Notes under the pieces: model-generated
What the model saw: only the letters and a program-made list of their open reading frames with translations
Databases searched by the model: none
What the model was told of the DNA's origin: nothing
Assembly (NCBI GenBank): GCA_950295325.1
Contig: OX485805.1
Location: 37,499,501 to 37,563,500, forward strand
DNA: 64,000 nucleotides
Direction of reading: 5' to 3'
DNA from: Polytrichum commune
Lineage: Eukaryota > Streptophyta > Polytrichopsida > Polytrichales > Polytrichaceae
Shown here: positions 3,854-48,458 of the stretch, piece by piece
Position numbering within the stretch: position 1 is the stretch's first letter
How the letters are laid out: each line of letters starts with the position of its first letter
Position numbers and translations under genes: made by a program

Positions 3854-4731
3854 AAAAATGCCATTGAAACCGAATACTCGTCTTTACGAAAACATCGTGT
3901 GTTTGGCGATATTTCCATCGACTTAGATAAACCACCTATAGGTCACAAGCTTTTACCCGGAAACTTGATTCCCAGGGATGAATCCTTCGATATAAGGTTA
4001 GGCTCGTCGCCCAAGGCTTTACCCAACGGCCCGGTATTGATTATGACCAAACTTATTCACATGTTATGGACACTGTGTCATTCATGTACCTCTTAGCCTT
4101 GTCAATTCAATTTTCTTTGAAAATGTATTTGTTGGATGTCGTTACCGCCTACCTACACGGTAACCTCGATACCAAACTCCATCTAACCCCACCACCCGGT
4201 TTTTTGAAATCCATTCCTAAGCCGAAACCAGGTAAATTACGGGTTTACGCATTTGTAAGGCTTTGTATGGTCTTAAACAGTCGGGCAGAACGTGGTATCA
4301 CCACCTTTGCCATTTCCTCATATCACACGGGTTTATACACAATAACACCCTACCCTGCATTTTTACTTACAGTACAAATTCAGGATTTGTTATCCTTGCC
4401 GTGTATGTTGATGATTTAAACATCCTAGGCACGCCTGAATTGTGTACGTATGCACAAGAATTTCTAACCAAGAATTTTGATATGAAGTACCTAGGCCAGA
4501 CTACATATTGCCTAGGCCTTCAAGTCCATTATGTGTCCAATGGTGGTATCCTCTTACACCAACAAGCTTATGTGCAGAAAATCCTTAAGCTTTTTAATAG
4601 ACCAGGCAAATCCGTTAGCAGCTCCCATGATCGGATGCAGTAAAACTAACGATGATCTCTACCAACCTTGTGAGGAGGAGGAGGAGGTAGTTGATAAGCC
4701 TAAGTACCTCACCGCGGTTGGTGCATTTACG
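3854..4731 (+). pseudogene. pol: copia pol: reverse transcriptase, left part
   Basis: Three overlapping frame segments (about 3899-4096, 4066-4419, 4263-4749) together give the copia RT order: DVVTAYLHG near the fingers, then MYGLKQSGRTWY, then the YVDD catalytic box followed by LNILGT, then FDMKYLG and CLGLQV. Frameshifts separate the segments, so no continuous enzyme is possible. The coding sequence ends abruptly at 4731 where the MULE begins; the missing C-terminal part resumes at 20684. Confidence 0.85.
4721..4731. repeat. MULE target-site duplication, left copy
   Basis: The 11-mer GTGCATTTACG occurs here and again at 20673-20683, exactly bordering the MULE termini. Removing the element plus one copy restores the copia RT frame. 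An 11-bp duplication is within the 8-11 bp typical of Mutator-like elements. Confidence 0.9.
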
Positions 4732-4830
4732 AGGGAAGCTATCTTATGAGCGATGAGCAGTGAGCGGTGAGCGGTGAGCAGTAACACATGAGCAATGAGC
4801 AGTAACATATGAGCAATGAATCCAAATTTA
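4732..4830 (+). repeat. MULE left TIR and subterminal GAGCRRT heptamer array
   Basis: After the terminal GGGAAGCTATCTTA the sequence runs as tandem heptamers (GAGCGAT, GAGCAGT, GAGCGGT and variants) to about 4820. The same heptamers occur in inverted orientation at 20605-20660. Repeated subterminal motifs are typical transposase-binding regions in plant DNA transposons; binding here is inferred. A telomere-like GGGTTTAGGGTTT lies just inside at about 4849-4862. Confidence 0.75.
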
Positions 4831-4929
4831 GTAAAGACACACGGGTTTAGGGTTTACAACCAAATTTTTGACAAATTAATTGCATATTTTCAATTATAAA
4901 TTGCCAATATTTTAAATGAAGTACAAGTG

Positions 4930-5045
4930 AAAGGGCCCTATTTCCATGGATCATTTAGAACACTTTCAATCCATTGCTGATTTTTATTATAATAATTCAA
5001 ACCAATACATGTCATATATTGACATCCTTATACATGTAGCTACAA
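4930..5045. repeat. Direct repeat A (copy 1)
   Basis: The segment with TTTTTATTATAATAATTCAAACC and a following GACATCCTTATACATGT-like string matches 8352-8465 with about 80-85% identity by eye. A second segment, 7899-7975 (B), likewise matches 8473-8553. The order A-(solo LTR)-B-(SINE-like)-A-B indicates an old tandem duplication of the transposase 3' flank that was later split by insertions. Confidence 0.65.
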
Positions 5046-5050
5046 CTAGC

Positions 5051-7893
5051 TGTGGTACTTTTGGGCCACCCCCTTTCGAGGGAGCCTAAAAGTATCACAC
5101 AAGCCCTTCGGTGAAGGTGGCCTGCATTTGCAGGCGCCCAAGCCGAACCCGGATGATAGGTGTATAACGTGAGTAGTTAGATTTTTAAGGGAGATTAAAT
5201 ATGCGTCGTAGTACCTCCGGAGGTTAGGCCTTAGTTTTTTACTAGTGTGGCTTTAAACTCCACTAACCAATTTCATATCTAGTTCTAACCTTAACCTACA
5301 ACCTATTCTACGCGCAGACGCACCAGCCTTGAAACCAAGGCAATCCTAATTTGTGAATTGGGATGGTTCTGATACACCCAACCGGGTGTGACTCATACCA
5401 CCCTAACTCAACGAACGGAATAACGACAATTTGATGGACCATTCAATTCTTCCTATTTCTTTATTTAGTTCTATTTAGTTTTCTAAGCGGGGGAACTTGG
5501 CCTAAGTCCCACCCTTCACACAAATTCTTTCTTAATTACTTACTTTTGTTTGCACGTCCTAACTTACTACATTAATATATTAGGCATCACCCCTTACCTC
5601 GGGTCTCTTGCCAACAAGGGTTTACGATTTATTTTGTATGTTTTGATTGTTAAATGTGTTTACACTGGATAGACCACGAAATGCAACTCAATGGGACCAG
5701 GGTGACGGGCGACCTGTAGGTTCAACCTGTTGCGCAATCTTCATAAATTGGGGCCATTACTCCCAATCTATGGGGCCAACAACATAATAGTGGATTCGCG
5801 GGTCATTAACCCCACCTTTCCACCAACAACATTCAGAGTGGTCGTGTCGGTGATTAATCCGACTTACCACACACAAAACTTGCTAATAAATGAAGCTACT
5901 ACCACAAAACATACCAAGGGCCCCGAAAACAATGGAATTGGGTACTCCCTTGGCGGTCAAGTGGTCAAGCCACTTGACCTTACGAGATAGGTGAGTGGGT
6001 TTAGAGATGCGTACCTTAGCCATGCTCCCTCCAATCCTAAATGGAAGGCTTAAGGTTAGTTAATTTACCTCAATTTTCCTCGGTTGATTTGGGCTTGATG
6101 TAGGCCGAGCCGCTACCTCCTTCCTTGCTCCACTTTCCGAGCGTCGACCTTGCCTCCTTCTTTGTAACTAGTTTGGTAGTAAGCGTACCTTAGTTAACAA
6201 TTAAAATATAAAGTGTTATTCTGCCCTGTAATTTAATCCTAAGCATAATATTTATACTTAGTGCACCAAATTATCTTTCCAATGATCTAAAAATCACTCT
6301 AATCGGATAAGAAATGCAAAAGTTATGAGGGTTGGAAGTGTGAGGTCGATTCAACCGACCCTTCCAACCCACCTATCTACCTTCTAACTTCAAAAATTCA
6401 TAGCACATTCCTTACTACTTGGATCTAGGCTTTCCTTATACCATTGGAAAGCTATGAACAAGCTCTAACTAGAAAAAATTATGACATCAGCAGGTTAAGC
6501 TAATAGAAATTCAGCGGACTCCTTGTAACACAGCAGTCAATCAAGAAGGCTTAAACTATGTATCTCGCCTTCAACAATTCATATCTAATTCAAATCTTAG
6601 TCAAATCAAACGTTCTATATGACCCTGGAGAGATATTAAAAATATGTATTTGATAAAAATATGTGATTAGAAAGGTAAGCCGAAGTGAACCCAGCAGGTC
6701 CTCTGTAATGCAGCAGTCAACCAAAAGTTCTCAAACTATGTGTCCCATCTTGCACAATTCATATCTAATTCAAATCATGCTCAAATCAAATGTTCTAAGC
6801 CATTTTGGAAAGCTACACAAAATTTCTATTTGGGAAAAATATAATTTCTTGGAATTAAAATTCCTATTGGGCTCGCAGGTCTGATCCAGCAGCCGCTACC
6901 CACAAGACCACCCAGTTTTTTCTACTCCATCTTTGAAAATCCATAACTAATTGTCATCTCAACCAAATCACAAATGGGAAACGGCTATGGATAGCTATAT
7001 GAAATCTCTCTAAGAGAAAAATGATAAGTATCTTGTTCTAGCTTTTGAACTAAGCCTTCAGGGCATTGGCAGATGAGGTCTATAATGCCTCTACTCAAAA
7101 CTCTACCATCCAACCTACCTCTACAAAAGAAGGAATAATTTTGTTGGTGTGTTAATAAACACACAACCTAACTAGGAGAGAGAGAGTAGAGGAGGTTCTC
7201 AAGCCTTTCTTTTAGACCATTGAGAATACATGCTAAAGGAATTTTTTCCTAACTACATTGAAGCAGGGCTTCGCCCAAAAACTAGAGAAAGAGAAAGAGC
7301 TACAAGGTGGAAGGAGGGGTTTTTAAACCCTCTCACAAAAGGGTTGGACCCCTCCTCCACCGGATCCATTTTTTCAAACCCTTTCCCGAAATTTTGGCTC
7401 GGGGGTTTTCCCGGTTGAGGTTGCCACCCTCTCGCCGAGGTGGCTCCGACAGAAAACCTTTAGAAATCTTTCTAATTTTTCCGCCATCGAGTTGGCAAGG
7501 GGGCAAGTGGGCAAGTAGCCCCCTTGCTCTCTTTCTTTTTTGTCTTCAAAAGTCTTCAAGCCGATTTTATCTTCTTACCTAAACCACCTCTAATAGTCTT
7601 GTGTGCCTCACACTAACTAATAAACTAACACTTGCTTAGCTAGCATCTACTAACATTTGCTTAATAACTAGCATCTACTAATATTTGCTTAGCTAGTTGT
7701 TTTTACTAGCTAGCATATTTTTTCTACTTTGCTATCTTCTAGCACTACTTAGTTTCATTTTGACCTTCCTTCTTCTAGGCTAAATGCTAAATGAACTAAT
7801 TTTCCCTAAATTCCCTATCAATTCTAACTTTTAATGCTAACATTCTAACTAAAAGTGATCCCGCAGAGTGGTGGACCACTCAAACGGTTCACA
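5051..7893. mobile_element. Solo LTR (about 2.84 kb) with TSD CTAGC
   Basis: The insert starts TGTGGTAC and ends GGTTCACA (TG...CA), and is flanked by the 5-bp direct repeat CTAGC at 5046-5050 and 7894-7898. It has no gag or pol frame and no internal duplication that would mark two LTRs. It splits direct repeat A from segment B, showing it arrived after that duplication. These are the hallmarks of a solo LTR left by recombination of a larger, probably gypsy-like, element. Short frames such as 5730-5990, 6663-6884 and 7230-7582 lie inside it and match nothing I recognise. Confidence 0.7.
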
Positions 7894-8059
7894 CTAGCAC
7901 TTGTACAACTACTCACATTCTACAACACCAACAAATTCAAGTAGGTGCATAACCTCATTATACATATATGTCGATGCCATAATTGTGAGCCACTCAAACT
8001 GCTCACGGGTTGAATAAAGGCCCATAATCTACAAAAGAAAAAAAATTATATATTAGAAA

Positions 8060-8290
8060 TAGTGAATATGTAGGTAGCTACTAGGTTTTGAGACATCCGC
8101 CTGTGGATGCAAGTTGTGTAAGAGACTGGTATTAAGTCTGGATCAACCCGGGTTCGAATCCGGTTGGTTACATTGACTGGTGCTATCCCAAATTGAGCTA
8201 GTGATAAAGCAGGAATAATCTATAGGCGGATACCAAGAAGACGTTACTACGCGGATGTGCGTAGAATCTTCTTAACTATTAATTATTTCT
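8060..8290 (+). mobile_element. Possible tRNA-derived SINE
   Basis: A perfect pol III B-box, GGTTCGAATCC, lies at 8151-8161. An A-box-like TTGTGTAAGAG (one mismatch to TRGYNNANNNG) lies 37 bp upstream at 8114-8124. No cloverleaf can be drawn around it, so it is not a tRNA gene. It sits between the two copies of direct repeat A/B, consistent with an insertion. The ends and target duplication were not found. Confidence 0.4.
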
Positions 8291-8351
8291 AGAAACGTGT
8301 TATTATTTATCCGTGTGAATCAATCAAACCACACATGGTTGGGTCGCAGTC

Positions 8352-8556
8352 TAAATAAAAATGAAGTTACTGAATCATTTGAAATACTTTCAGTCCACTG
8401 TTAATTTTTATTATAATAATCCAAACCAAAACATGTCATTTATTGACATTCAAATATATGTTGTTTAATAGAACACTTGCAATACTACTCACATTCTACA
8501 ATACCAGCAAGTTCAAGTAATCGCATGACCTCATTATAGGTATATGTAGGTGCATG
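8352..8556. repeat. Direct repeat A+B (copy 2), overlapping the transposase 3' end
   Basis: Positions 8352-8465 match 4930-5045, and 8473-8553 match 7899-7975. The B part includes the last about 25 codons of the transposase frame, so the 7899-7975 copy is a stray piece of the transposase end. Confidence 0.6.
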
Positions 8557-11500
8557 AATGAACTTGTCACTCTCGTAATCTACCTTGCACAAAAATCTAA
8601 ATACATAATAAAGATATTTACAATACACCCATTTTCCTTTCTTTCCCAATGCATGAGAGGACATTTTCGTGAAATCTGGACATGTGCAATGCGGGATATC
8701 GCCAATTGTGACATGGTAGGTAATATCCTGCTTGGAGACAATGTTGATTATCACTCCAAAGCCCGGATATGGAATGGTAGTGACCCCAACCACATAGTAA
8801 CCTTTCATGAGTCCGGCGCTCTCCCATTTGTTTTTGTGATCCGCCAGAGGTGTTGTTGGATTACGACGAATTGTCTTCCCAAATCTTAATGTAGGGTGGG
8901 CGTCTGGGTTTGGTGGCATAGAAAAATGCGATCGAGGGATGGGAAGAGTTGCGATTGTTGAAAGCCTACGACGAGGAGACAATGCCTCCCTCTACTGTAG
9001 TTGAAATCCAACATCTTCAAGTGCCAAAACCTCCTCTCTCGATAGATTGGTACCTATCTTCATTGGCCACGTGTTGGATACTATTGGCCAATCCAACACA
9101 TATTTCTTCTTACTGCCACTCACACAACGTTTGATGTCGTCAGGACAAAACCAAAATTCATACTCCACATTGTTGGGAGAGCGAAATTCTTTCCTGAGCC
9201 CTTTGTATGTTGGAGCAGATGTGCCATGTTTCCCAGTCCCGACTTTGGCATTGCACATAGTCCCTGTAATGGCCTGCAGTGCCCAACAACGTTTGGCTGA
9301 GTTGGATGGCAATCTTGCAATGTGCCACTTAGAAGCAAGACAATCAGTCTCTAACACGGATGTAGTATGAGCCACACCATGAATTGCAGAACTCAACGAT
9401 TCCTCTATGCGTTGACGAGTTGCTCGGGTGTTGGGACGAGGAATAGAATAGTTTACTTTGTCAGGTCGATGAGAGTCACAATCAACACCCGGTGGTAGGT
9501 TGAGTTTGCGTTTGGTGGAACCAAAGAGCTCTGACCCTTCCAATGCACAATCTCTCGTGTTGACGTCTTCTACCCCTGGATAAAACTTCATGGCATCGGC
9601 CAACATTTTTGGATCTCCACACCTGGCAGCCGCTTTGAGTTTCAAAGGATGCCGAATCAGGACCTTTACCATTAGACCCCCCTTTCAACCATGTCCGGTA
9701 ATTTGCAATTTGCATGAAGGCACGAATCATGTCGTCCACTGTAGCTTCATATAAACAAGTCATCTTGTTGCCGGACTGTTGAAGCCATTTGTTGTGTACA
9801 GTCTCTGCAAGGTTGCATGTTGGCATTTCCGCACGTTCTTCTATTGTCATATCCTATAAACAACACACAAATATGAGGATAAGAAAAATAAAAGATATAT
9901 ATAACAGTGGAAGAAAAATGAATGACATTGAAGAATAAAATTTGATATGTACTTACAAATAACATATGACCACCCCATTGTCTGTAACGAAAGTGCCAAA
10001 AACCCAACCACTCTGAAAGGCCAAGGATGCCTTCTTCTGAGGCAGCTCCGGATGACAACTACCAAGAACGAATCACATGATACTTAGTCTCGGCGTCGTC
10101 CATTGTTTTTGCGTCTTTGTAATCCTTGCATATTTGCTTGTGTTGAAACTGCAAGGATGGTTTGATATACTTTTGGGTCACCTTATCCAAGCTCGCAGAC
10201 CAATGGAAAAGACATGTACGCTCACGTGCAACCATGGGTAGACTTGGATCACCATCCCCGTAAATCGCCCTTACCGCATTCCAATTAGCTTGAGCACTAT
10301 CAGCCATAAACCCTTTGAAGTTTACGTTTGGTACACCATTTTCTGCCATGACATTATTCAAATTTTCCCAAAAGAGAATTTGTGCTGCACCATCTTCAGA
10401 TTGCATATCACAACACGCAATAGTCAACACTTTACAGTATCGACTGTCGTACACATGGCAAGCCATGGTCGTCCAGTCCTTCAAACGTTTGACATGGTCA
10501 AACATAATCCATGAATTCTCCATGTCCCCACCGACTTGCATCCTCTTTACAAGCTCCACACCACTACCTGGAAGGTCTACATACATCTTGAAAACAAACA
10601 CTTTGTCCTTTGACTGCCCTGGAAACCGACTACCATGAACGAACTTGAAAGCAGAGTGGTCTTTGAGTGCCATAATACTATCCATAGTTCCCATTCCACT
10701 ACGCAAAAAACGCTTTGATCCGGATACAAAGTTACGACAATTCGGGGACGCAAGAGTGCTGAATTTGTCCATGACGACCTCTAGGGATGAACCAACCAAG
10801 TGATGGCCTTTGACATTTGCGGGAGATTTGAGAAGGTAATGGGCCAAGAATTGTTTGCTTGCTGCCATAACTATAGCTGAATTTTTGGCTGTGGGTGTTT
10901 TCAATACTTCATTTGCAACGCACTGGTATGCCATGTCCAATGACTCACGGCATGTGCCATTGGCCACAGGGTGATCATGTATACCAATATGAATGCAAGC
11001 CCTGGACATTCCAACAGATGTGGAATGGATGTATAGGATTCGAGCATGACATAAAGCAATGCACACAGGTGTGGAACGACATACCTTACACTCGACAGTG
11101 GACCTAGAAGGAGGAACATTATCCACAGCAAATGGGAGAGGAGTTGAACCGGCCCATTCAGTGTTGTTCCGGAGGCCCCATTGCGATTCATATAATCACA
11201 GTAGTCATTAGGACATTGGAGATGACCAGCACAAGTGGAGCGCTGGAAGGATAATCCAAAATCATTTTGGATATTGGTGGTTTTGGTGGTGCACCAAGGG
11301 TGACCGTCGCACATCTTGTCCATGCCGTCCATTGAGCGGCCATACGTACTTGGAGCTTTAAGTATCACAGGGGGTAAGAGATACAAAACATCACCATTAA
11401 AAGAAGATGGTAAGTACTTGACATCATGAACATCTATATTATTAAAATCAATCGATGCGAGATCTGACTTTGATCTTTTTCTAGACTTTATAAGCTTCAA

Positions 11501-12091
11501 AGCATCAACGATAGTCAACCCTATAGATGAAGGTGAAGGGTGTAGTGGAGGACGTTGAGAAGGTGAGAGCTGGGGAACCAAACTCTTGTACATAGGACCG
11601 CATAGAGATTTGGCTATATGTATAGGAAGCTGTGAAGAAGTGGAATGAAGACTTTTAAATGGAAACGGCGATGTGTTTGAAAGATCAACAGATGCACAAA
11701 TGTCATCTTCCGAATCTGATAGCACAAACACACAGTCATCAGTGGGTTCAAATTTAACAGGTGCGACATAGGGAATTTGAACGGTGGATGTACCGGATTC
11801 GTTTGTCAAGATGACAGTTGAAGCTTGCATCTGAGATTCAGAAAGACCTATTACCCTAAATGAACCAGGTCCTAAGATCCACATAAAACCAACCTCGGTT
11901 CTGTTTTTTTGAACCAAAACCGTTTCATACACCTCTCCATCTGCAGAATACATCTCCTGCTCTAAATACATGGTTCCTATCTGGAGGTTGAATCTCAGAC
12001 TAAGCAAATTCTCTGAGACATTGACATGACCATCATCTTGAAGTGGCAAAATGAAGGGAACAAAAGATCCGTGAGCTCTAATGGTAGCCAT
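8485..12091 (-). pseudogene. MULE transposase with SWIM zinc finger, inactivated
   Basis: Two exons are visible: 12091-9957 and 9853-8485, joined by a 99-bp GT-AG intron in phase (about 1,167 codons). The start is ATG 12091. In order: an N-terminal region of unknown fold; an acidic stretch (VLSDSEDD); a Cys/His cluster (MCDGHPWC ... CAGHLQCPNDYC) that looks like a FLYWCH/WRKY-type DNA-binding zinc module; the MULE catalytic core, with candidate acidic residues in VYDSRYCKVLTIACCDMQSED, FMADSAQANWNAVR and the HWSASLDK block, and a later Glu near ASEEGILGLSEW; and a C-terminal SWIM finger (CTCPDF ... CKYLYYVF). Lesions: frameshift near 11176, TAG at 10059-10061, frameshift near 9655, TAG at 8992-8994. 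In a live copy it would cut and join MULE ends in the nucleus. It is divergent from the ParB-methyltransferase gene. Confidence 0.85.
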
Positions 12092-13044
12092 GGAGAAGAA
12101 AGAAAAGATGAACAACACATGACAATAATCTTAGATCAACATCGCTTTTGTATTGAATGATGGAGAATATAATAATGAATATAAATTAAAAGAGGTGATA
12201 CCATAGCATCCAATAATACAAAAGAAGACAGATCATAATAGTAGACAGAGAATATTTGCAAGGAAGACATAGAATCCTAAACCAGATCCCAAAAAATATC
12301 TCCTTTAGAAACTAAGCCATAGGAAACTTGAACCCACAAAGGAGTTGTCTAATATAAGATTATCACATGGGAGAAATGCGGGCACGGATATCATGGAAAA
12401 TACGGCGTCGAATAATAAACAAGTTGGCAGAGTTTTAAAATACGACTGTGTAGGCTGGATGTAGATGCAGGAACAATTAAAATTGGCCGGCAAAGTAAAT
12501 GATTGGCCATTATAAATAGAACAAAGTCAATGTGGTAGGTTGGGATATCAGAGAAATTTGGCGGATATAATAAAAATAGAAGCAGAGTGAAAGACGCGTT
12601 AAAACAACTTGATCATTGGACGCCAATTGCAACACTGATGATCGTAATGTGCGCTAGGTTTAAGTGAGCTCTAAACACTAAACAAATGTTTGAAAGTGGA
12701 GTGGTAGAAGATATATCATAGACAGCAATGATAGTAGAACATGTAGAGAGAACACTAGTGAGGCGGAAGAGAAGACATAGGAAGGCGGAGGACGATGAAG
12801 GTGCAGAGAGCATGCAGACGATGGTATTTCGGAGTCGGAAATGAAGACGAGTTCACAAAACAGAAGAAACAAAAAGGTAAGTCAGCTTATGAAATTGTTT
12901 GATTTGAAATTATTTTGTTATGTATTCCTTAACAAAATGTTGTTTGTTTATCTTGTTCGAAATATTCATATGTATGTATTTAGTTGAATTATGATGGGTA
13001 TTAACACATCTATGTTGTCAGGTGCTAGTAATGTGACGTTGGCG

Positions 13045-13130
13045 ATCTTCTTTTGAAGATACAAAATTTCTAGCAAGTCCATCACCTTCACGAAGCCTCC
13101 CTATCTATGCTGAGACCGTGGCTTATGTTT
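13045..13130 (+). pseudogene. Relic of the ParB-methyltransferase last exon
   Basis: The string GAAGCCTCCCTATCTATGCTG and its flanks encode residues like SPSRSLPIYAETVAY. They parallel SPQSLPVYAEALAEAY in the final exon of the cargo gene at about 19835-19890. The resemblance is short and is seen at both nucleotide and protein level. It suggests that a second, older copy of the cargo gene, or a rearranged end of one, once lay here. Confidence 0.4.
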
Positions 13131-13348
13131 GGAGTTCATAAATTTAGTGGCCGAATCATTATTAACATCCATGAAATGCATGTTGTTGAGAGTAACAATG
13201 TAGTGCAGAGGGTAGCTGAATGCGTTTAAATGTAAAAGAACGTCATTTATTCATGTTAGCAGTGGTTACTCCAGTGTAGGGTAGGAAAAAAAATAGGCGA
13301 AAAAGTAGCTTTCGTTTTTCAAGTAAGAGACAATTGTCAAGGGCTAGA

Positions 13349-13657
13349 ATGAATAGACGTATTCCTCGAATAAAAGGAGTGGACCTATCAGGTACAACAA
13401 GGAATTTGACGTACGAAGATATTGTGGCATACGAAATGATAACGGAAGATGTCTTCGAACACCAAACTCCTACATGTGAAGCTCAACCACATATCGTCTC
13501 TAAATGCAATGAAGAAGATGAAGAGGAAGAAGACGAGGAAGATTATGATAAAGGCATCGACAAAGAGCAAGCCACACAATACGAAAAAGAAGAACAATCT
13601 TCTGAGGCGGAATTGAAGTTGTACGAAAGAAATGATAAGAGAAGAAATTTAAAATGA
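13349..13657 (+). CDS. Small acidic hypothetical protein (possible)
   Basis: An open frame of about 102 codons from ATG 13349 ends at TGA 13655. The N-terminus is basic (MNRRIPRIKG); the C-terminal half is strongly acidic with a run of Glu/Asp (EEDEEEEDEEDYD). I recognise no family. It could be a residual exon of the duplicated cargo gene, a small MULE accessory protein, or chance. It lies just after the last-exon relic, which favours gene debris. Confidence 0.25.
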   Translation: MNRRIPRIKGVDLSGTTRNLTYEDIVAYEMITEDVFEHQTPTCEAQPHIVSKCNEEDEEEEDEEDYDKGIDKEQATQYEKEEQSSEAELKLYERNDKRRNLK

Positions 13658-14251
13658 AAATAAATTTAGAGGTATATAATATATATTATATTGTACACAC
13701 CGAAAATACGATTCCAATGGTATATAGCATGAACAAAATAATTTTGTTTTGCATGTTTTAGAGCCAAAAAACAATTAGAGCATCTTAGATTCTTCTAAAA
13801 TCTTCAAAACATGAAGATTTTATGCAGGAAATCTAACCATATTAGTTTTAGTAGACTTTGACGATTTATGTAAAATTAATATTATCTCCAATAATTCTGA
13901 AAAAAAATGGAGTGAATGGCAAGGCTTAAATCTATGCACTAGAGTTTTTGTGGAAATTAATTAGGATATTTGAAAAAGTTATAGCAAAGATTCCATAGAC
14001 TGAAATCTACCAAAATTTTTTTTTTTTTTTTTAGAGTCCGACTTACCCTAATGTCTTGAAGCCATACTCTTCGTAATGTCTTCAGACATCCTCTTTCGAA
14101 GTGTGGCGGCAACAACATACGCAAGAAGCAAGAGCGCGCACCATGGACGATGCAAATGCTGGTACAAGTTCCAGGCGGCGACGTGGGCACATAGACAAAA
14201 CGAGCAAGAGCGACAAAGAAGCTGCAACTCCGGAAAACGACTCAAATGAAG

Positions 14252-16054
14252 GTGAGTTTCTCTTCCAAATGGGTAGCCGTTAACGGCCACCCTTTCTATG
14301 ATGCCCACTTCTGTGTTGTAGTCTGTTTCATTTAAAAGTGTGGCAGTTAACGGCCACCCTTTGTTGCATCTTATATTTCTGAGTATATGTGTTTCTTTAT
14401 TCAAATATAAACACATTTCCTTAAATTTTTTGTCCTTGAAATTTCAGACTCTTCTCCATATGTGTTTTTTTCTTCGTGTATGCACTCAATTGCTTCATTT
14501 TTTTTCCTCCAACAAGGGTGGCCGTTATCGGCCACCCTTATTCACATTTCAGATTTTTGTTCATAAGGATTTCTTTGTACATGTACACACCCATTTCTCT
14601 CATTTTTTTTTCCTTCAATAAGGGTGGCCGTTAACGGCCACCCTTATTCTCATTTCAGATTTTTTTTCATAAGGGTTTCTTTCTACATGTACACACCCAT
14701 TTTTCTTATTTTCTGTCCTTCAATAACGGTGGCCGTTAACAGCCACCCTTATTCTCATTTCAGATTTTCTTTCATAAGGGTTTCTTTCTACATGTACACA
14801 CCCATTTCTCTCATTTTTTTTCCTTCAATAAGGATGGCCGTTAACGGCCACCCTTATTCTCATTTCAGATTTTTTTTCATAAGGGTTTCTTTTTACATGT
14901 ACACACCCATTTCTCTCATTTTCTGTCCTTCAATAAGGGTGGCCGTTAACGGCCACCCTTATTCACATTTCGGATTTTTGTTCATAAGGGTTTCTTTCTA
15001 CATGTACACACCCATTTCTCTTATTTTTTGTCCTTCAATAACGGTGGCCGTTAACGGCCACCCTTATTCTCATTTCAGATTTTTTTTCATAAAGGTTTCT
15101 TTCTACATGTACACACCCATTTCTCTCATTTTTTTTCCTTCAATAAGGGTGGCCGTTAACGGCCACCCTTATTGTCATTTCAGATTTTTTTTCATAAGGG
15201 TTTCTTTCTACATGTACACAGCCATTTCTCTAATTTTCTGTCCTTCAATAACTGCGGCCGTTAACGGCCACCCTTATTCTCATTTTAGATTTTCTTTCAT
15301 AAGGGTTTCCTTTTACATGTACACACCCATTTCTCTCATTTTTCTTCCTTCAATAAGGGTGGCCGTTAACGGCCACCCTTATTCTCATTTCAGATTTTCT
15401 TTCATAAGGGTTTCTTTCTACATGTACACACCCATTTCTCTCATTTTCTGTCCTTCAATAAGGGTGGCCATTAACGGCCATCCTTATTCACATTTCGGAT
15501 TTTTGTTCATAAGGGTTTCTTTCTACATGTATACACCCATTTCTCTCATTTTTTTTCCTTCAATAAGGGTGGCCGTTAACGGCCACCCTTATTCTCATAT
15601 CAGATTTTTTTTCATAAGGGTTCTTTCTACATGTATACACCCATTTTTCTCATTTTCTGTCCTTCAATAAGGGTGGCCGTTAACGGCCACCCTTTTTTCA
15701 CATTTCGGATTTTTTTTCATAAGGGTTTCTTTCTACATGTCTACACCCATTTCTTTCATGTTTTTTGGCTTCAAAAAGGGTGGCCGTTAACGGCCACCCT
15801 TATTCATATTTCAAATTTTGTTTCTACATGTATGCATGCATGTGTGTATGCATTCATTTCCTTCATTTTTTTTCTCCAAGAAGAGTGGCCGTTAACGGCC
15901 ACCCATATTCAAAATTTAGACTTTTTGGGAATATGTAGTTTTTTCTCTTATGTATAATCTCACTTTCTTTAATGTTTTTTCATTTTGTTTTAGTTTGCAT
16001 ATATGATTTCTTTCCTATGTATATATTTCTTTTGATTTATTTTTGTATCTCAAG
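14252..16054 (+). other. Intron 1 of the ParB-methyltransferase gene
   Basis: The donor is AAG|GTGAGT at 14251/14252 and the acceptor is TCTCAAG at 16054. The phases of exons 1 and 2 agree (1+2 nt). At 1.8 kb it is over ten times longer than the gene's other introns (about 95-160 bp). Nearly all of it is the palindrome array 14273-15905. Confidence 0.7.
14273..15905. repeat. Palindrome minisatellite: 16 sites, 105-bp period
   Basis: The repeat core is a 26-bp perfect dyad made of AAGGGTGGCCGTT and its reverse complement (for example 14620-14645). Cores begin with GGCCG or a variant at 14275, 14342, 14520, 14626, 14731, 14836, 14941, 15046, 15151, 15256, 15361, 15466, 15571, 15675, 15782 and 15887. 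From 14626 on, the spacing is 104-107 bp and usually exactly 105. Each core contains CG dinucleotides and an HpaI-type GTTAAC centre. The linkers are T-rich with a conserved TACATGTACACACCCATTTCTC segment. Because 105 is a multiple of three, the array makes a spurious 348-codon frame (14624-15670). Confidence 0.95.
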
Positions 16055-19000
16055 TGGGTGATATGTTTTGTGCTTTAGATTTGGAAGTTGTACATCTTTC
16101 TGAAGATCAATTGGAGATGCAATTGCATGCATTTTTTAAGAAAGAAACTGTCAACACATCTTCCCGTTTTGAACGGTTGAGGTATCAACCAAAGGCAAAA
16201 TCAAAACTCAACATTCCACTATGTCGAATGATTGCATTGCCTGTTGTTAGGCATTTTCTAAAAAATGATGTTATGAACCTGGCTGCACATTTTGTTGCTT
16301 GTGGTTATATGGAGGGCAATGGGGTTTTTTATGTGGCCTTGGAAAACAATGAGGGGAAAACAATAGATGTTACCGATAGATCTTGGAGTGAAAATTGGGT
16401 GAGGGCTAATGATGCCTTTGAACAAATATTGCAAGCTGATGAGGATCTCAAAGTTTTTTTTGGCAAAATGTTCATGGTGTGGGACGGAAATCACCGTTTG
16501 CAAGCATGGTTGCCTATTATTAATCGAAATCACACACATGACCCGGTTTGGCATTATGCTGTTGAAAGTATTATTTTGGACGTCAAAGGAGATATTGCAA
16601 CCATGTTGGCAGCTTTACATGAAGTTAATTGGTAATTACTTCATTCTTCTCTTTTTATTTATTCAGTTCATTTGGTTTTTTTTTTAGTTTTTTTTTTATT
16701 GGATATCTTTTTTTTTTGGCTTATCATTGGATGTTTTGTTTTGACAGGAGGAACCAAAAATCTCATGTTTGTACCAATCTTGTTCATAAGCTTTTCCGCA
16801 TTCAAAGCATTGCTGGACAACCACTTTCATATTTTGAGAAACTTGTTTCCAAAGAAAATCTTACTGCCGCTGATGCGAAACAAAAATCCAAACATAAGAC
16901 TTGGTTTACTTTGACTGTTGAGGCTGTTAATGGATTTCTATACCAGGTTATTTTTTCTGAAGTATTCGTTTTTCACGATTTTTGTTTTCTTGTATATTTT
17001 TTTTGTTTTTTTTTTAATTTCGATTTCTATAACTATATTTTCTATTGCATCTTATTTTTGTAGTGTGTGATTATTCATACTCTTATATGTTTTTTCGTTG
17101 GTGTAGCAAGAGTTGGGAGATGCTGCTGCTACTGCTCAAAGGAAATTTTATGAGAAATATCCTGATCCTGCGCATTGGACTTCGAGTACAGTAGATGAAT
17201 TTGTTTCCAAAGTTGTTGAGAGGGTGAGATTGACTTCTCATTCGGAATTGAAGAAACAACTTCCCATTGCGGATCCTAAACATTCTCCTGTGTTCTTAGA
17301 GCAGGTGAAGTCTCATTATGAAACTCACGATGAGAACCCTGAGATGACTCAAGAAAAACTTTGGATGTTAGCAACTTCGGCAATGGACACATCTATGAAG
17401 ATTAAGTGGCTTGAGAGGTGGAACAGTCCCCCTGCTCTTCGTGAGGCTCTCAAGTTTCCGAAACCAAAATTCAATGATATAGAGTTTCTTAAGTGGCTTC
17501 ATAAAGCTACTTGGTGGGCTCAGGTGATACTTTTTGTCCTTCTATTATGTTTGGTTCATTTATTTTTGGTCTGTATTTTTAATTTATTTTTAATATTTTT
17601 TCAATCATTTAATTCTTCTAATCTTTATTTTGTATTTGGCAGTTGGCTATTGAGACCGAGAAGCTTTTTGATGCTACTGTGGCTGATATGCATGTGTCCA
17701 TCAACTACCTTCCAGATGGTATGGATCCTTTGCCCACTATTTTTGATTATGTGGAGGCAATGCGCATATCATTGTGGGATACTGCATTTTTTCGTGAATT
17801 CGGTGTGGATAAGGGAGTTCACAAAAATCATAACATTGACAAGCAACTCAATTTTTATCCGGCCATGCGAAGGGTGTTTTATAGGTACTTCAAATATGTC
17901 TTATTTCCTGCGAAAGCCATTTCTAAATCTCCCATTTTTTTGGCTAATTATTTGGATATCGAAAGTGAAGAATGCATGTTCACAGAGGGGATCATGAAAT
18001 CTTGGGATCCTGTGCATTTTAAAAAATGAGGGTGGTATTTGGATTGTCCTCTTAAATCACCTCCCACTTTTGATATTGCCCTTCGAGATTCCATTCAACC
18101 CGCCCTCAAGGGTACAACTAAAATTGTTCCCTCTATAATGGATGAGGATGCAGCCAAGATGCCAAAAAAAAAAGTCTAAGCCTAAAAGACCAATCCTCCT
18201 CATTCATGATAGCGATGAGGATGCTCCAATTCAAAGCAGTCTCAACAACCTTGTAGTTACTGAACCTTCTTCTTCAAATCTAGAGGCAACGTTTCATACT
18301 TCAAAGCGGCAGAAAACAATCCCTTCTCCTACCTTGGATATGCCTCCCAACCTTAGAGGTATGATGAATATCTTGCCTCCTTTACCTGCAAATCATACAT
18401 CTTCGGATTTAATCTTGAATGATTCTTTTGTGAGGATTATCGAGGATAAGAAGCAAACAGGTACATTTCGTGCACCATATGACGACATTGTGGCTTTTCT
18501 ATCAAAGGTGAGTTCATTTTATTTTACAGTTTTTACTTTATTCAAGTTTTATAAAGTTTCACTCGTATTTTGTTACGTTATTTTATTTTTATTTTTAATT
18601 GTCGTCTTTATTCATGAATTGTAATATTTATATTTTATCTTTGTAGGTTGGTGAAGGTAGACAATTTTTTTTTTATGGCCAATTGCAAAAGAAACCTGCT
18701 GTGGACCTCATTATTGCGGATTACCCAGATGGTCTTCGGGTTCGAGGTGTCTCGGATCCGCCATCTCAAATTCCCCCTTGGAATGCCAACATTCCAAGTT
18801 TTCTCAACATATTGATGGCATTTGCTCTTACCTATCTTCATGATGATGGAGCATTCCTTTTGTTTTATCCTGACAGTTCTGCCGTGAAGAGAGAAGTGGC
18901 AGGATTCTTCAAGAACTATAAGTTCAAAATCAAGGATGAGTGGACTATCATTAATTCCTTGCACTTGGCAAATCCTATGAATCCGTCCAAAAATGTAAGT

Positions 19001-19990
19001 AGCAATTATGACATTTCATTTTGATTGGTTCATATTTGAATTTATTTTTATGTGTTATATATTTTTTAATTTTAATTTTACATGGACTTTCAGACTTTGA
19101 AGTTCAAGGCTTTGTTATTGGTTCGATCATTTTCAATTCCCATTGCGAAGCAACCTCAAGAACTTCTGATCACCATGCATCCTTCAATTCCTGAGGTCGA
19201 TTTAGCCACAGATGACGTTCTCTTCAACTCTATTACTATGGAAACTCAATTATGTAGACAAAGAGATGGCAAGCCATGGAGGGGTGCAAAGGAGAAGTCT
19301 GAAGTTTTAATGAAGTTATTTGCCCATGGTTTGAATCCTGTAGGCGGTATTGTGGCAGACATGACCGCTTCTACAAGTATTGTATATTATAGTATCCAAT
19401 TATTCGTTCATATGTTTTTTAATTCATACTTCAATGTTCGTATTTTTCTAATTAATGTTTTGCTTCATCCAGGTTCTTCTATTAGAGCGGCTCATTCATC
19501 TAATCGTCATATTCTAGCATTAGAAAGTGATGCCGAACTCTTTGATGAGGTACTAAAACCTCTTCAAACACCTACAAATGATACCTCATGCGATGGTATG
19601 GACTTTGATGATGATACTCCAATAGAAGACACCGCACTTCTTAACTTATGTGAGTAAGTTTTTTCATTGTTTTTTTCTCAACAACTTCAATTGCAAATTC
19701 TAGATTTTGTATTCTAATTTGTTGTTACATATTCTAATACATGGTTTGTTGTTTGTAGTTGGATGAATCCATCGCCGATACAAATCTCGTCATTTTATCG
19801 GCACCGTGGATTATTGAGAAGCCCCTCTCTTAGTCCTCAGAGCCTCCCTGTGTATGCTGAGGCTTTAGCTGAAGCTTATGCTAATGCTTCATCTACTTCA
19901 TCTTCAATTTCACCTTCACCTCGTAGATATTACGATACTAGAGTATGTGCTTATTTTGAACTCAGTGCATCTGAGTCCGACGATATTTAA

Positions 19991-20604
19991 GTTTGTATTC
20001 ATGATTTGATTTTTGAAATTTGATTTCCAAGAACTTCAACAATTTTAATCTACTACCCGATTTATATCTACAATCCATTTTTGTTGTTCTTTATGTTTTG
20101 GACTTCGTAAATGTCACCCTCATGATGGTGTTATGATGTATTTAAATTTTACATTGATGTGTATTATAGTGAGACATTCTAACATGCTACACTTGTTTTC
20201 AACATGAGTTTGCTTACACATTGTCTCCAATTACATTATTATTATCTCAACAATTAAATGTATATTAGTTCATTTTTAGTACAAAATTGTTATAGCAACA
20301 TTCTCATTTGTTGTTCATTTGGACTATAGACCCTTACATGTAATTCCACAGTCATAGGCCCCCAACGGATTTACAAACCATAACCGGGAAAAAATTGAAG
20401 GCTCACATGTTCACGCTCGCATGCTCACATACTAGCAACCCCGAGTCGTGTACATATTGGTCTTTTTCATTGCTCACTACTTGCAATCTAGCATTCATAT
20501 TATTTGTCCTCCCCAATCTTCTTATTATTGAACCCTAAAAAATTATTTCTTTAGGCCACGGTTATAGGATACTCGGGGTCCTATTACCAAATATTTTGTT
20601 TTCT
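19991..20604. other. MULE right arm, no gene
   Basis: This contains the 3' flank of the ParB-methyltransferase gene. It is AT-rich with no coding frame. It leads into the inverted GAGCRRT heptamers at 20605-20660 and the right terminus. Confidence 0.6.
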
Positions 20605-20672
20605 TCACCGCTCACAAATTACCGCTCATCGCTCACCGCTCACTGCTCACCGCTCACAAGATAGCACTCCCC
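20605..20672 (-). repeat. MULE right TIR and subterminal heptamers
   Basis: Read on the minus strand, this begins GGGGAGTGCTATCTTGTGAG and continues as GAGCGGT/GAGCAGT heptamers, mirroring the left end at 4732-4830. The adjacent 20673-20683 is the second copy of the 11-bp target duplication. Confidence 0.85.
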
Positions 20673-20683
20673 GTGCATTTACG

Positions 20684-46412: not shown

Positions 46413-48458
46413 TCAAGTTAGAGAAGAAGCAAAGGAGCTTTTGTAGGCGTCGAATTCGGCCAATTTTATATAGGCGTCTTGATCTCTACTCTGCGCTTGA
46501 TTATTTGACTTACGTGAAACTTTCGTTATTACACTACGACGTTGATCGACAATTCTTCTGCATGTATAAGTTGTGCTATCGTCAGGATCTAGATGAGGTT
46601 GTGGAAGTCCATTGTGATCATCAATTGTGTGGCGCACTCCGAAATCTTCTAACCATCCGTCAAAGCTGTTGACTCTAGGCTGTTTAAGAAACGCTTCTCG
46701 CTTAATCAATTGGTTGTTTGAAGGCTTCTTCGTCATATATTCAGAATAGGACAACGCCTTCGATTCCGAGAATTTCTTAAGGTCAGCTTCAAAGGTGGCA
46801 AAGACCTCGTCTGACTGCATAGCGGCCATTTTAATTGCCTGGTTCGGATGATCTTTGACACATTTAGATGATGCACCAGACGGCTCTGACCATCCAATGA
46901 ACACGTCAAACATCTTGCAGGACTCTGCGTCGTCTTTTCGTACGTCGACAGACTTCCATACTTTGAGAGAGTTGTTTGTTCTTTTGGATCTGCGTGTGAG
47001 CTCCGTTTTTGTGCTTTCTTGTGACGTCATGAGGTCAGGACAGGTGAACCGATCTCCTTCAACGCCATTTTCAGTTTTGCACGACTCTGCGATAGCAATC
47101 AGCTAATCAAAACAATAGTCGAGGGTAATCTCTTGAAGGTGTACGTAAAGTTCCACTACTTAATATGTAATAAGCAGATGCTTCTGCGAAATCCAACACT
47201 AGTAGGTAGACAGTACGCTATAAAAATAAAACAATTACCACGCATCTACAGGTCCCGAATGTGATCCGATGCAATTGTACCAAATGTGTACGGATACGCA
47301 TTGCAAAGCTCGGGAAGGACTGACGTAGTAACTAACTGCAAAGGCACAGAAAGACAACACAGTATGCCAGTATTTTGAAGTGTGGATGCCTGGCTATCAT
47401 ACGAGCATAGTACCACCATGCCATAGTTGTTGTCTGGAAAGAAACATAATTAGCTGATAATGAAGTTTATCGAATTAGATGTTGTAATTATGGAGCACAG
47501 TAGCTGATTCACCTGAGAGGTACTCCGCGCCATGTGAGATCGTAGTCATGGCTTTTAGCTCTTGAGACGGCCAAAGAACTATAGCGGAGTCTCTCGTGTA
47601 GTTCCTCTTCCTCGTTCCCTTTCGTCCCGTGGACCATAGCCCGGGATTATGGCCTGCAAGTGCGAGGGGCTCTGGTGTCGATTTATTATGAGCGCCTTCG
47701 TCGTCAGCAGCACTCGTGGTATGCAAGCACACTTGAAATCTCGGTTGAACACATTGATGAGAACTTCCAATCTTCTGCATGTCTTTGCGTCTCGCAGATA
47801 TCTCCTCCGCGCTGAGACAATAAGGTCTTCTCAGCATTCTCTCCACGCTGGATGCATCTAAAGTGCAACGTAGTAAGCCAGGGTGCGAAGCAATATCGTA
47901 ATACACTGTTGCTGATTACGTAACTTACTAGCCTACTCTCCAACACCAAACCCCCTCCCCGCTGGATGCATCTAATACTGTGCATCGTTGTCAGCCAGGG
48001 GCCGAAGCGATACCACAATAAACTGTTCCTAATTACATCACTCACTAGCCAGCTCTTCATGACAAAAACTCCTCCGCGCTGAGGCAATAAGGTTTTCTAT
48101 CATGTTGTCAGCCAGGGTGCGAAGCAATATCATAACATACTGTTCCTAATTACAAAAATCACTAGCCTATATTTCATCACAAAGCCTACTTATATGACGC
48201 TCAGGTGAATGCTGAATTACTTATGGCAGATTGCTGCCAAACAAACGAATGCTCTCTACATAAGACATTGAAGTACAGCACCTACCAATCCTCATACACC
48301 CGGAGCTTCTTCGGAACCTTTCTCTGGCTGGAAGAAGAACTCGGCCTAACAAGGCGCCTCTCAATGTCGTCAATCTTCTCTTGAGGAGTGCGGAAGTACC
48401 CGCTGATCTGCGAATTAGTTTCCGGTGCTCCCCCGCTTGCGAGCGCGAAATCATCCAT
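46413..48458 (-). CDS. Hypothetical protein, 381 aa, three exons
   Basis: Three exons fit in phase with consensus junctions: 48458-48286 (57 codons + 2 nt), 47811-47513, 47086-46413 (stop TGA). The N-terminus has TPQEKIDDIERRLVRPSSSSSQRKVPKKLRVYED, short-helix and Ser-rich. The middle (CAEEISARRKDMQKIG onward) is basic and low in hydrophobics, with RKGTRKRNYTRDS. The C-terminal exon begins ESCKTENGVEGDRFTC and includes LTRRSKRTNN and a mostly hydrophilic tail (KKPSNNQLIKREAFLK). No transmembrane segment or signal peptide. I recognise no family; composition suggests a nuclear protein. An upstream in-frame Met at 48485 is possible. The local GC is higher than in the surroundings, supporting coding. 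A lineage-specific gene is the best reading. Confidence 0.6.
47800..48190. repeat. Three tandem units of about 117 bp
   Basis: Units starting near 47802, 47946 and 48063 share CCTCC-CGCTG, AGCCAGGG-GCGAAGC-ATA, a CTGTT-CTAATTAC block and CACTAGCC. They occupy intron 1 of the hypothetical gene, and the first unit overlaps the acceptor and start of exon 2 (47811). The CTCCGCGCTGAG at the acceptor recurs at 48064-48075, so a second copy of the splice acceptor context exists upstream in the intron. Confidence 0.75.

Follow-up and report, generated by a model that had tools for sequence, protein, structure and literature searches.

A predicted first intron in a gene carried by a DNA transposon of Polytrichum commune is occupied over most of its length by regularly spaced 26-bp palindromes. 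This raises the question as to whether the palindromes are sites that a protein recognises, and if so which protein, or a product of tandem amplification. The window, i.e., the whole 64,000-nucleotide stretch that was analysed, contains the element between two copies of an 11-bp target-site duplication (Table 1). The insertion point is a copia-type reverse transcriptase/RNase H region, the flanks reading by eye as one interrupted copia frame, with copia-type domains in ORFs further left. The terminal repeats (4732-4820 and 20604-20672) are built of TGAGCGG/TGAGCAG-type heptads. Mutator-like elements (MULEs) generate target-site duplications of about 8-11 bp, a range that includes the exact duplication found here. 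In a Pfam scan, the probable transposase ORFs yielded no family above the cut-off and no MULE match, a weak SWIM zinc finger (E 0.095) falling below that cut-off; as the duplication length is its sole basis, the Mutator-like assignment is therefore kept as a lead. The N-terminal ORF of the probable transposase has 55 database homologues. The models of the cargo gene, on the opposite strand, are predictions from sequence alone. An in-frame TGA ends exon 5 and the reading frame shifts near a homopolymer further on (18027-18175), so the element in the window may be a decayed copy.

Table 1. Features of the element and its palindrome array (positions in the window)
Feature	Position	Strand	Remark
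Left 11-bp target-site duplication, GTGCATTTACG	4721..4731		exact repeat at 20673-20683
15.9-kb DNA transposon	4732..20672		basis: ends and duplication
Left terminal inverted repeat	4732..4784	+	47 bp, 91% inverted identity to right end
Divergent gene, probable transposase	8485..12118	-	ORFs 8485-8982, 8992-9672, 10059-11126, 10901-12118
Predicted exon 1, cargo gene	14143..14251	+	ATG and GT donor
Predicted intron 1, holds array	14252..16078	+	GT donor at 14252, AG acceptor ending 16078
Palindrome 1	14269..14294
Palindrome 2	14336..14361
Palindrome 3	14514..14539
Palindrome 4, perfect	14620..14645
Palindrome 5	14725..14750
Palindrome 6	14830..14855
Palindrome 7, perfect	14935..14960
Palindrome 8	15040..15065
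Palindrome 9, perfect	15145..15170
Palindrome 10	15250..15275
Palindrome 11, perfect	15355..15380
Palindrome 12	15460..15485
Palindrome 13, perfect	15565..15590
Palindrome 14, perfect	15669..15694
Palindrome 15, perfect	15776..15801
Palindrome 16	15881..15906
Exon 2, cargo gene	16079..16631	+	conserved domain with DGNHRLQAW
Predicted exon 3	16748..16946	+
Predicted exon 4	17107..17523	+
Predicted exon 5	17643..18029	+	ends at in-frame TGA in this copy
Predicted exon 6, holds IADYPDG	18647..18994	+	methyltransferase-like by eye only
Right terminal inverted repeat	20619..20672	-
Right target-site duplication, GTGCATTTACG	20673..20683

The array is made of 16 sites that match the dyad AAGGGTGGCCGTTAACGGCCACCCTT with at most three mismatches, seven of them perfect; beyond these, the 64-kb window holds no site with up to eight mismatches. 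With the inner 20 bp of the dyad as query, 16 matches at up to three mismatches are obtained; 100 shuffles gave a mean of 0.00. Successive dyads start 67, 178, 106, 105 (nine times), 104, 107 and 105 bp apart, and TRF assigns the array a period of 105 with 14.0 copies. The initial annotation had described sixteen 26-bp dyads in the first intron of the cargo gene, spaced mostly at exactly 105 bp. The count is confirmed, the intron being a prediction, and so is the spacing within the window (10 of 15 intervals); the sites given there at 14275, 14342 and 14520 are the dyads starting at 14269, 14336 and 14514. As 105 is a multiple of three, an ORF (14624-15670) stays open through the repeats, and its translation matches a database protein, P0056, whose own repeats resemble the translation of a similar array; the residues RVVVNDHPY at one of its sites could represent a symmetric change, although other readings fit. 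A protein-coding minisatellite was nevertheless rejected because the array lies within the predicted intron. No relatives were found in viral contigs, and a search for TGGCCGTTAACGGCCA in 257 Gb of bacterial and archaeal genomes returned 62 stretches where about 60 are expected by chance.

Across the 408-Mb genome (64 contigs), the dyad occurs at 556 sites per strand with up to three mismatches, against none for the reversed control. The window was compared with 24 distinct places among the dyad matches listed. Other copies of the element, with which the initial annotation had suggested comparing the array, carry it too: each of the 25 loci, 24 of them chosen by the dyad, has 5-49 sites at up to six mismatches. 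Exon 2 adjoins the array in 22 loci; in L079 the array continues towards the locus end, and L074 and L075 are without an exon-2 match. The junction itself is recurrent, with AAGGTG at the donor place just ahead of the first palindrome in 19 of the 25 loci; in the window, the first palindrome starts 17 bp behind the GT donor. The two longest arrays, of 42 and 49 sites at up to six mismatches, belong to L089 and L079; linkers in L089 are most alike 18 units apart, forming a higher-order repeat. A different palindrome, the perfect 24-bp GGGCGCTGTCCCGGGACAGCGCCC, is identical at L082:4294 and L100:1402 and lies outside the array word; it is perhaps part of another nested element.

The 105-bp interval had also been taken as ten turns of DNA that would place all sites on one face of the helix, with a constant spacing expected across copies. 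This part of the initial annotation did not stand. The 25 loci provide 273 spacings, of which 202 fall in 102-108 bp, with 54-55, 67-68, 114, 155 and 177-179 bp appearing repeatedly outside this range. Taking 10.5 bp as one turn, phase over all 273 spacings gives R = 0.71, a value due to the unit length itself; R is 0.28 for the 22 distinct spacings outside 102-108 bp, and 0.32 for the 71 such spacings weighted by occurrence, many of which are inherited together. These values, together with the units of 64, 94, ~360 and 373 bp found in sister families, give no support to helical phasing, and 105 bp most likely reflects the size of the amplified unit.

If the array were a neutral minisatellite, in which the palindrome promotes slippage or breakage and hence tandem amplification with no binding function, dyads and linkers would be expected to age alike. 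Palindromes could themselves drive tandem amplification, which would also explain why families differ in their palindromes, and both the range of copy number and the large private expansions in L079 and L089 fit such a process. The pattern of divergence argues otherwise. Between subfamilies A and B, fixed differences affect 2 of 78 dyad columns and 30 of 165 linker columns, counted in three positional classes (13 A + 10 B, 13 + 10, and 14 + 11 of the 25 copies); for L079, the last class uses a unit other than its true last one, and for L070, the second class uses a row with the first-unit dyad. Compared with the consensus of their own subfamily, 73 of 1846 dyad cells and 247 of 3943 linker cells are variant. 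Fisher's test on the fixed differences gives p = 4e-4 and the fixed-to-varying contrast between dyad and linker p = 0.04, both values being guides, as columns and copies are non-independent. It follows that retention of the dyad is stronger in source lineages than after insertion, when both dyad and linker decay. Among eight unit-type consensus sequences, dyads differ at 0-4 of 26 positions and linkers at between 3 of 29 and 27 of 41, the dyad proportion being the lower one in 27 of 28 comparisons, which assigned L070 to subfamily B on a crude criterion that was put right for the A/B column count; the sole exception is the first against the second unit of B (dyad 4 of 26, linker 3 of 29). Six unit consensus sequences differ by 4.1% in the dyad window and by 21% in the best non-overlapping 26-column window, and palindromes at outer positions are kept while their linkers have largely diverged. 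Of 201 units, 81 have their nearest linker solely within their own element (25 ties), and since 70 of these 81 are in L079 and L089, most other units seem to have been inherited by position with the array rather than generated anew. Eleven other tandem arrays in the window were tested and none contains a palindrome with arms of at least 8, a weak control because most of those arrays are shorter than 100 bp. A neutral minisatellite is thus judged unlikely, and the initial claims that the dyads are better conserved than the linker and that the whole is a binding-site array are upheld, the latter by the retention of the dyad, by the array's presence in all copies looked at and by the palindromes of sister families described below, all of which suggest binding from sequence. 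A second tandem repeat in the window (47841-48169; 117-bp unit, 2.8 copies) has no palindrome with an arm of 8 or more.

What is conserved in the dyad appears to be a word, with no sign of conserved pairing between its arms. The right arm and the centre show stronger conservation than the left arm, which counts against a symmetric dimer, for such a dimer would not predict unequal arms. The compensatory changes anticipated within the dyad are not evident within subfamilies either: 298 sites contain 12 double changes (5 complementary, 7 not), and about 25 are expected by independence. From one family to another, the arms do vary in a symmetric manner (GGGTG-CC / GG-CACCC against GGGTGGCC / GGCCACCC). 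The same figures bear on RNA hairpins that would act from the intron in splicing or small-RNA production. An 11-bp stem capped by a UUAA loop is possible for each perfect copy, as read from the sequence without folding, but pairing-preserving doubles are not in excess and variation is mostly one-sided, making hairpins highly improbable.

A further view of the site comes from related families. When the genome was searched at the protein level with exon 2, 1238 candidates were returned, of which 150, ranging from 99% down to 39% identity, were scored. The 2 kb ahead of exon 2 was then inspected in 14 loci picked solely for exon-2 homology, by identity class, mostly on the plus strand, before their upstream sequence was viewed. 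An inverted word is repeated there in 9 of the 14: five pass a strict test of perfect arms of at least 8 with a spacer of up to 8 (L092, L097, L101, L102, L104), two have the pattern GGGTG..CACCC (L091, L093), and two, those of nearest identity (L098 at 70%, L099 at 68%), hold 4 and 5 degenerate A/B dyad sites. The words themselves differ. L097 has GGGTATTGGCGG-NN-CCGCCAATACCC (GGGTATTGGCGG-CA-CCGCCAATACCC) in 5 copies with full arms, or 10 with variants, in a TRF unit of 64 bp; L102 has three copies of GTGTCTCGG-NN-CCGAGACAC; L101 has three copies of CAATGAAG-AAG-CTTCATTG in a 360-bp unit; and L104, also with a 360-bp unit, has two copies of a repeat with 11-bp arms and one copy of CAATGAAG. 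Closer to the word in the window are GGGTGCC-GGCAAC-GGCACCC in L092 (2 copies, or 4 counting an AACAAC form), GGGTGCC-YGA-GGCACCC in L091 (2 copies) and GGGTGCC-RTAAAC-RACACCC in L093 (10 copies, 94-bp unit), the last with imperfect arms and no perfect arm of 8 under the strict test. L091-L093 gave no palindromes at spacers of 0-1, and their dyads were seen by eye and then tested with wider spacers. Background palindromes amount to 0.15-0.4 per locus in a Markov shuffle and 0.7 per 2 kb in the rest of the window. Of the remaining five loci, L095, L096 and L100 have one intact copy of a sister-arrayed word or of the D word, and L094 and L103 have tandem units with just single, unshared palindromes.

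Further repeats were noted in these loci. Family C (L091, L094) carries mainly a 53-bp direct-repeat array based on TGCTCTCAGGT, which is not a palindrome array, and L095:209-446 and L100:857-1092 have in common three inverted repeats in opposite orientation, one with arms TGGACTTCCAT, that are probably a nested mobile element. In the genome as a whole, 781 matches per strand were counted for GGGTGCC-N6-GGCACCC and 0 for the control, and 32 of 50 places among the matches listed have a GTTAAC centre. Among the 17 clusters in the matches listed, all on C1 and C2, six are upstream of an exon-2 match at a distance of up to 5 kb, two within 10 kb on the other side of exon 2, and nine are without a nearby exon-2 match, as judged against the 150 scored of 1238 candidates. 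Six GGGTGCCGGCAGCGGCACCC sites at G000:C2:67030224-67031355 lie 3-4 kb downstream, not upstream, of an exon-2 match.

Several related families thus carry different palindromes, and two of the words are confined to one cargo-protein clade each. A tree was built from 13 exon-2 pieces, each about 95-116 residues long, and palindrome type was compared with the cargo clade; in it, the two GGGTATTGG loci form one clade (support 0.998) and the three CAATGAAG loci another (0.999). For the non-GGGTG words, this distribution indicates a co-evolution of protein and word, as far as sequences can indicate it. The GGGTG..CACCC word is common to A/B, C and D, which group together (0.976), yet E1 (L093) has it as well while clustering with the CAATGAAG loci (0.903), so this word either predates these clades or was regained.

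The diversity of the words also bears on whether a protein of the host reads them. Each dyad in the window has two inverted AACGG cores, which could serve as MSA-like sites bound by MYB3R factors and confer cell-cycle-timed expression. The longer MSA consensus, YAACGGYYA, is present 27 times in the array, is otherwise missing from the element and has one match in the remaining 48 kb, and D-type dyads retain AACGG. Excerpts of PMC10905365 describe AACGG and CCGTT as MSA-like cores, and the A/B dyad resembles such sites in having the core in both orientations. By comparison, the outer arms are the better-shared part here and are kept without AACGG in all 10 dyads of L093 and both of L091, while L097, L101 and L102 use unrelated palindromes that also lack the core; recognition by a host factor is accordingly improbable.

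Within the element itself, the binder could be either of two gene products. Some plant transposon proteins bind repeated subterminal sites, and the array lies between the coding parts of both genes, where the transposase might bind it for transposition or autoregulation. It is, however, about 9.5 kb away from the left end and 4.8 kb away from the right one, and the terminal repeats contain no dyad; that the transposase rather than the cargo protein is the reader of the array has, in our estimate, a small chance. The cargo protein belongs to a sizeable family. A mixed exon-2 query of a protein database gave 99 matches, 98 new ones and P0056, the array translation, and at least 150 matches were found in the genome; 38 of the 98 relatives were aligned with exon 2 of the window, and all 98 were placed in a quick tree. 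The exon-2 domain has no naming match in Pfam, NCBIfam or PDB sequences, DndB being touched by one of 39 exon-2 members at E 0.16, and phage records hold no protein match to it. No match of the cargo protein to a known DNA-binding family was found, nor was there a Pfam methyltransferase match. DGNHRLQAW (16079-16631) and, further on, IADYPDG (18647-18994), methyltransferase-like by eye, are the motifs that stand out; the scanned libraries recognise neither.

The first of these motifs, DGNHR, presumably resembles ParB/sulfiredoxin-like domains, and ParB acts on parS, palindromic sites that occur in clusters, as the sites here do. A ParB fold was not confirmed for the cargo protein: no ParB profile is matched in Pfam, NCBIfam or PDB sequences, and an AlphaFold2 model of exon 2, of middling confidence (pLDDT 63), had no VIA-align match among 111 chains. 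The setting also differs, this being a eukaryotic transposon in which a partition function is not expected.

A closer parallel is found in the VANDAL elements and their VANC proteins. According to excerpts of PMC5735166, VANC21 binds YAGTATTAY motifs accumulated as tandem repeats, the introns of VANC21 and VANB21 contain tandem repeats with the VANC target motif, VANC induces a loss of methylation, and DUF1985 is the VANC domain. As far as the excerpts of PMC5735166 and PMC10398659 describe VANDALs, the element resembles them as a DNA transposon with a transposase and cargo genes, in a motif that differs between related families and varies in copy number, and in tandem repeats placed in non-coding parts, introns included, the role of these repeats as a target being putative here. 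Unlike in VANDALs, the repeats here are built on a palindrome of 17-26 bp and not on YAGTATTAY, the unit length is fairly regular within a family, and the cargo protein shows no DUF1985: Pfam gave no match at E ≤10 in the 554 aa of exons 1-5 and the 211 aa of exons 6-7, the exon 5-6 piece lying outside the scan, and the domain is absent from the family list of the 39 exon-2 relatives.

Taken with this analogy, the sequence evidence slightly favours, over all other readings together, an array that serves as a recognition array for a sequence-specific DNA-binding protein encoded by the element, with a VANC-like anti-silencing or regulatory role. Protein binding, the identity of the binder and the anti-silencing or regulatory effect are what we infer. 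The leading candidate would be the product of the cargo gene, whose first intron the array fills, followed by the divergent transposase. A protein dimer would sit on each dyad, and, with many tandem sites, protein could accumulate in sufficient amount to open or regulate the stretch between the divergent genes; the element would thereby be kept active, much as VANC proteins remove silencing marks from VANDAL elements. Families would diversify by changing protein and palindrome together and, as a consequence of this joint change, each would act on its own copies.

To our knowledge, the VANC proteins of Arabidopsis are the only known case of such sequence-specific self-recognition. In a search of open-licence literature, none of the listed titles and abstracts covers such arrays outside the VANC repeats of PMC5735166 and PMC10398659. 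Tentatively, and with somewhat less than an even chance, the elements of Polytrichum commune may represent a widespread self-address system outside VANDALs, in which an old cargo family is paired with a clade-specific palindromic word amplified before exon 2, the two co-evolving and the families being mutually insulated. If true, this would be a second such system, built on an unrelated cargo protein and long dyads and spread over many parallel families. It would point to the repeated evolution of private address codes by transposons and would offer a natural series of protein/DNA-word pairs in which changes in specificity could be studied; family-specific words may be how such elements recognise themselves.
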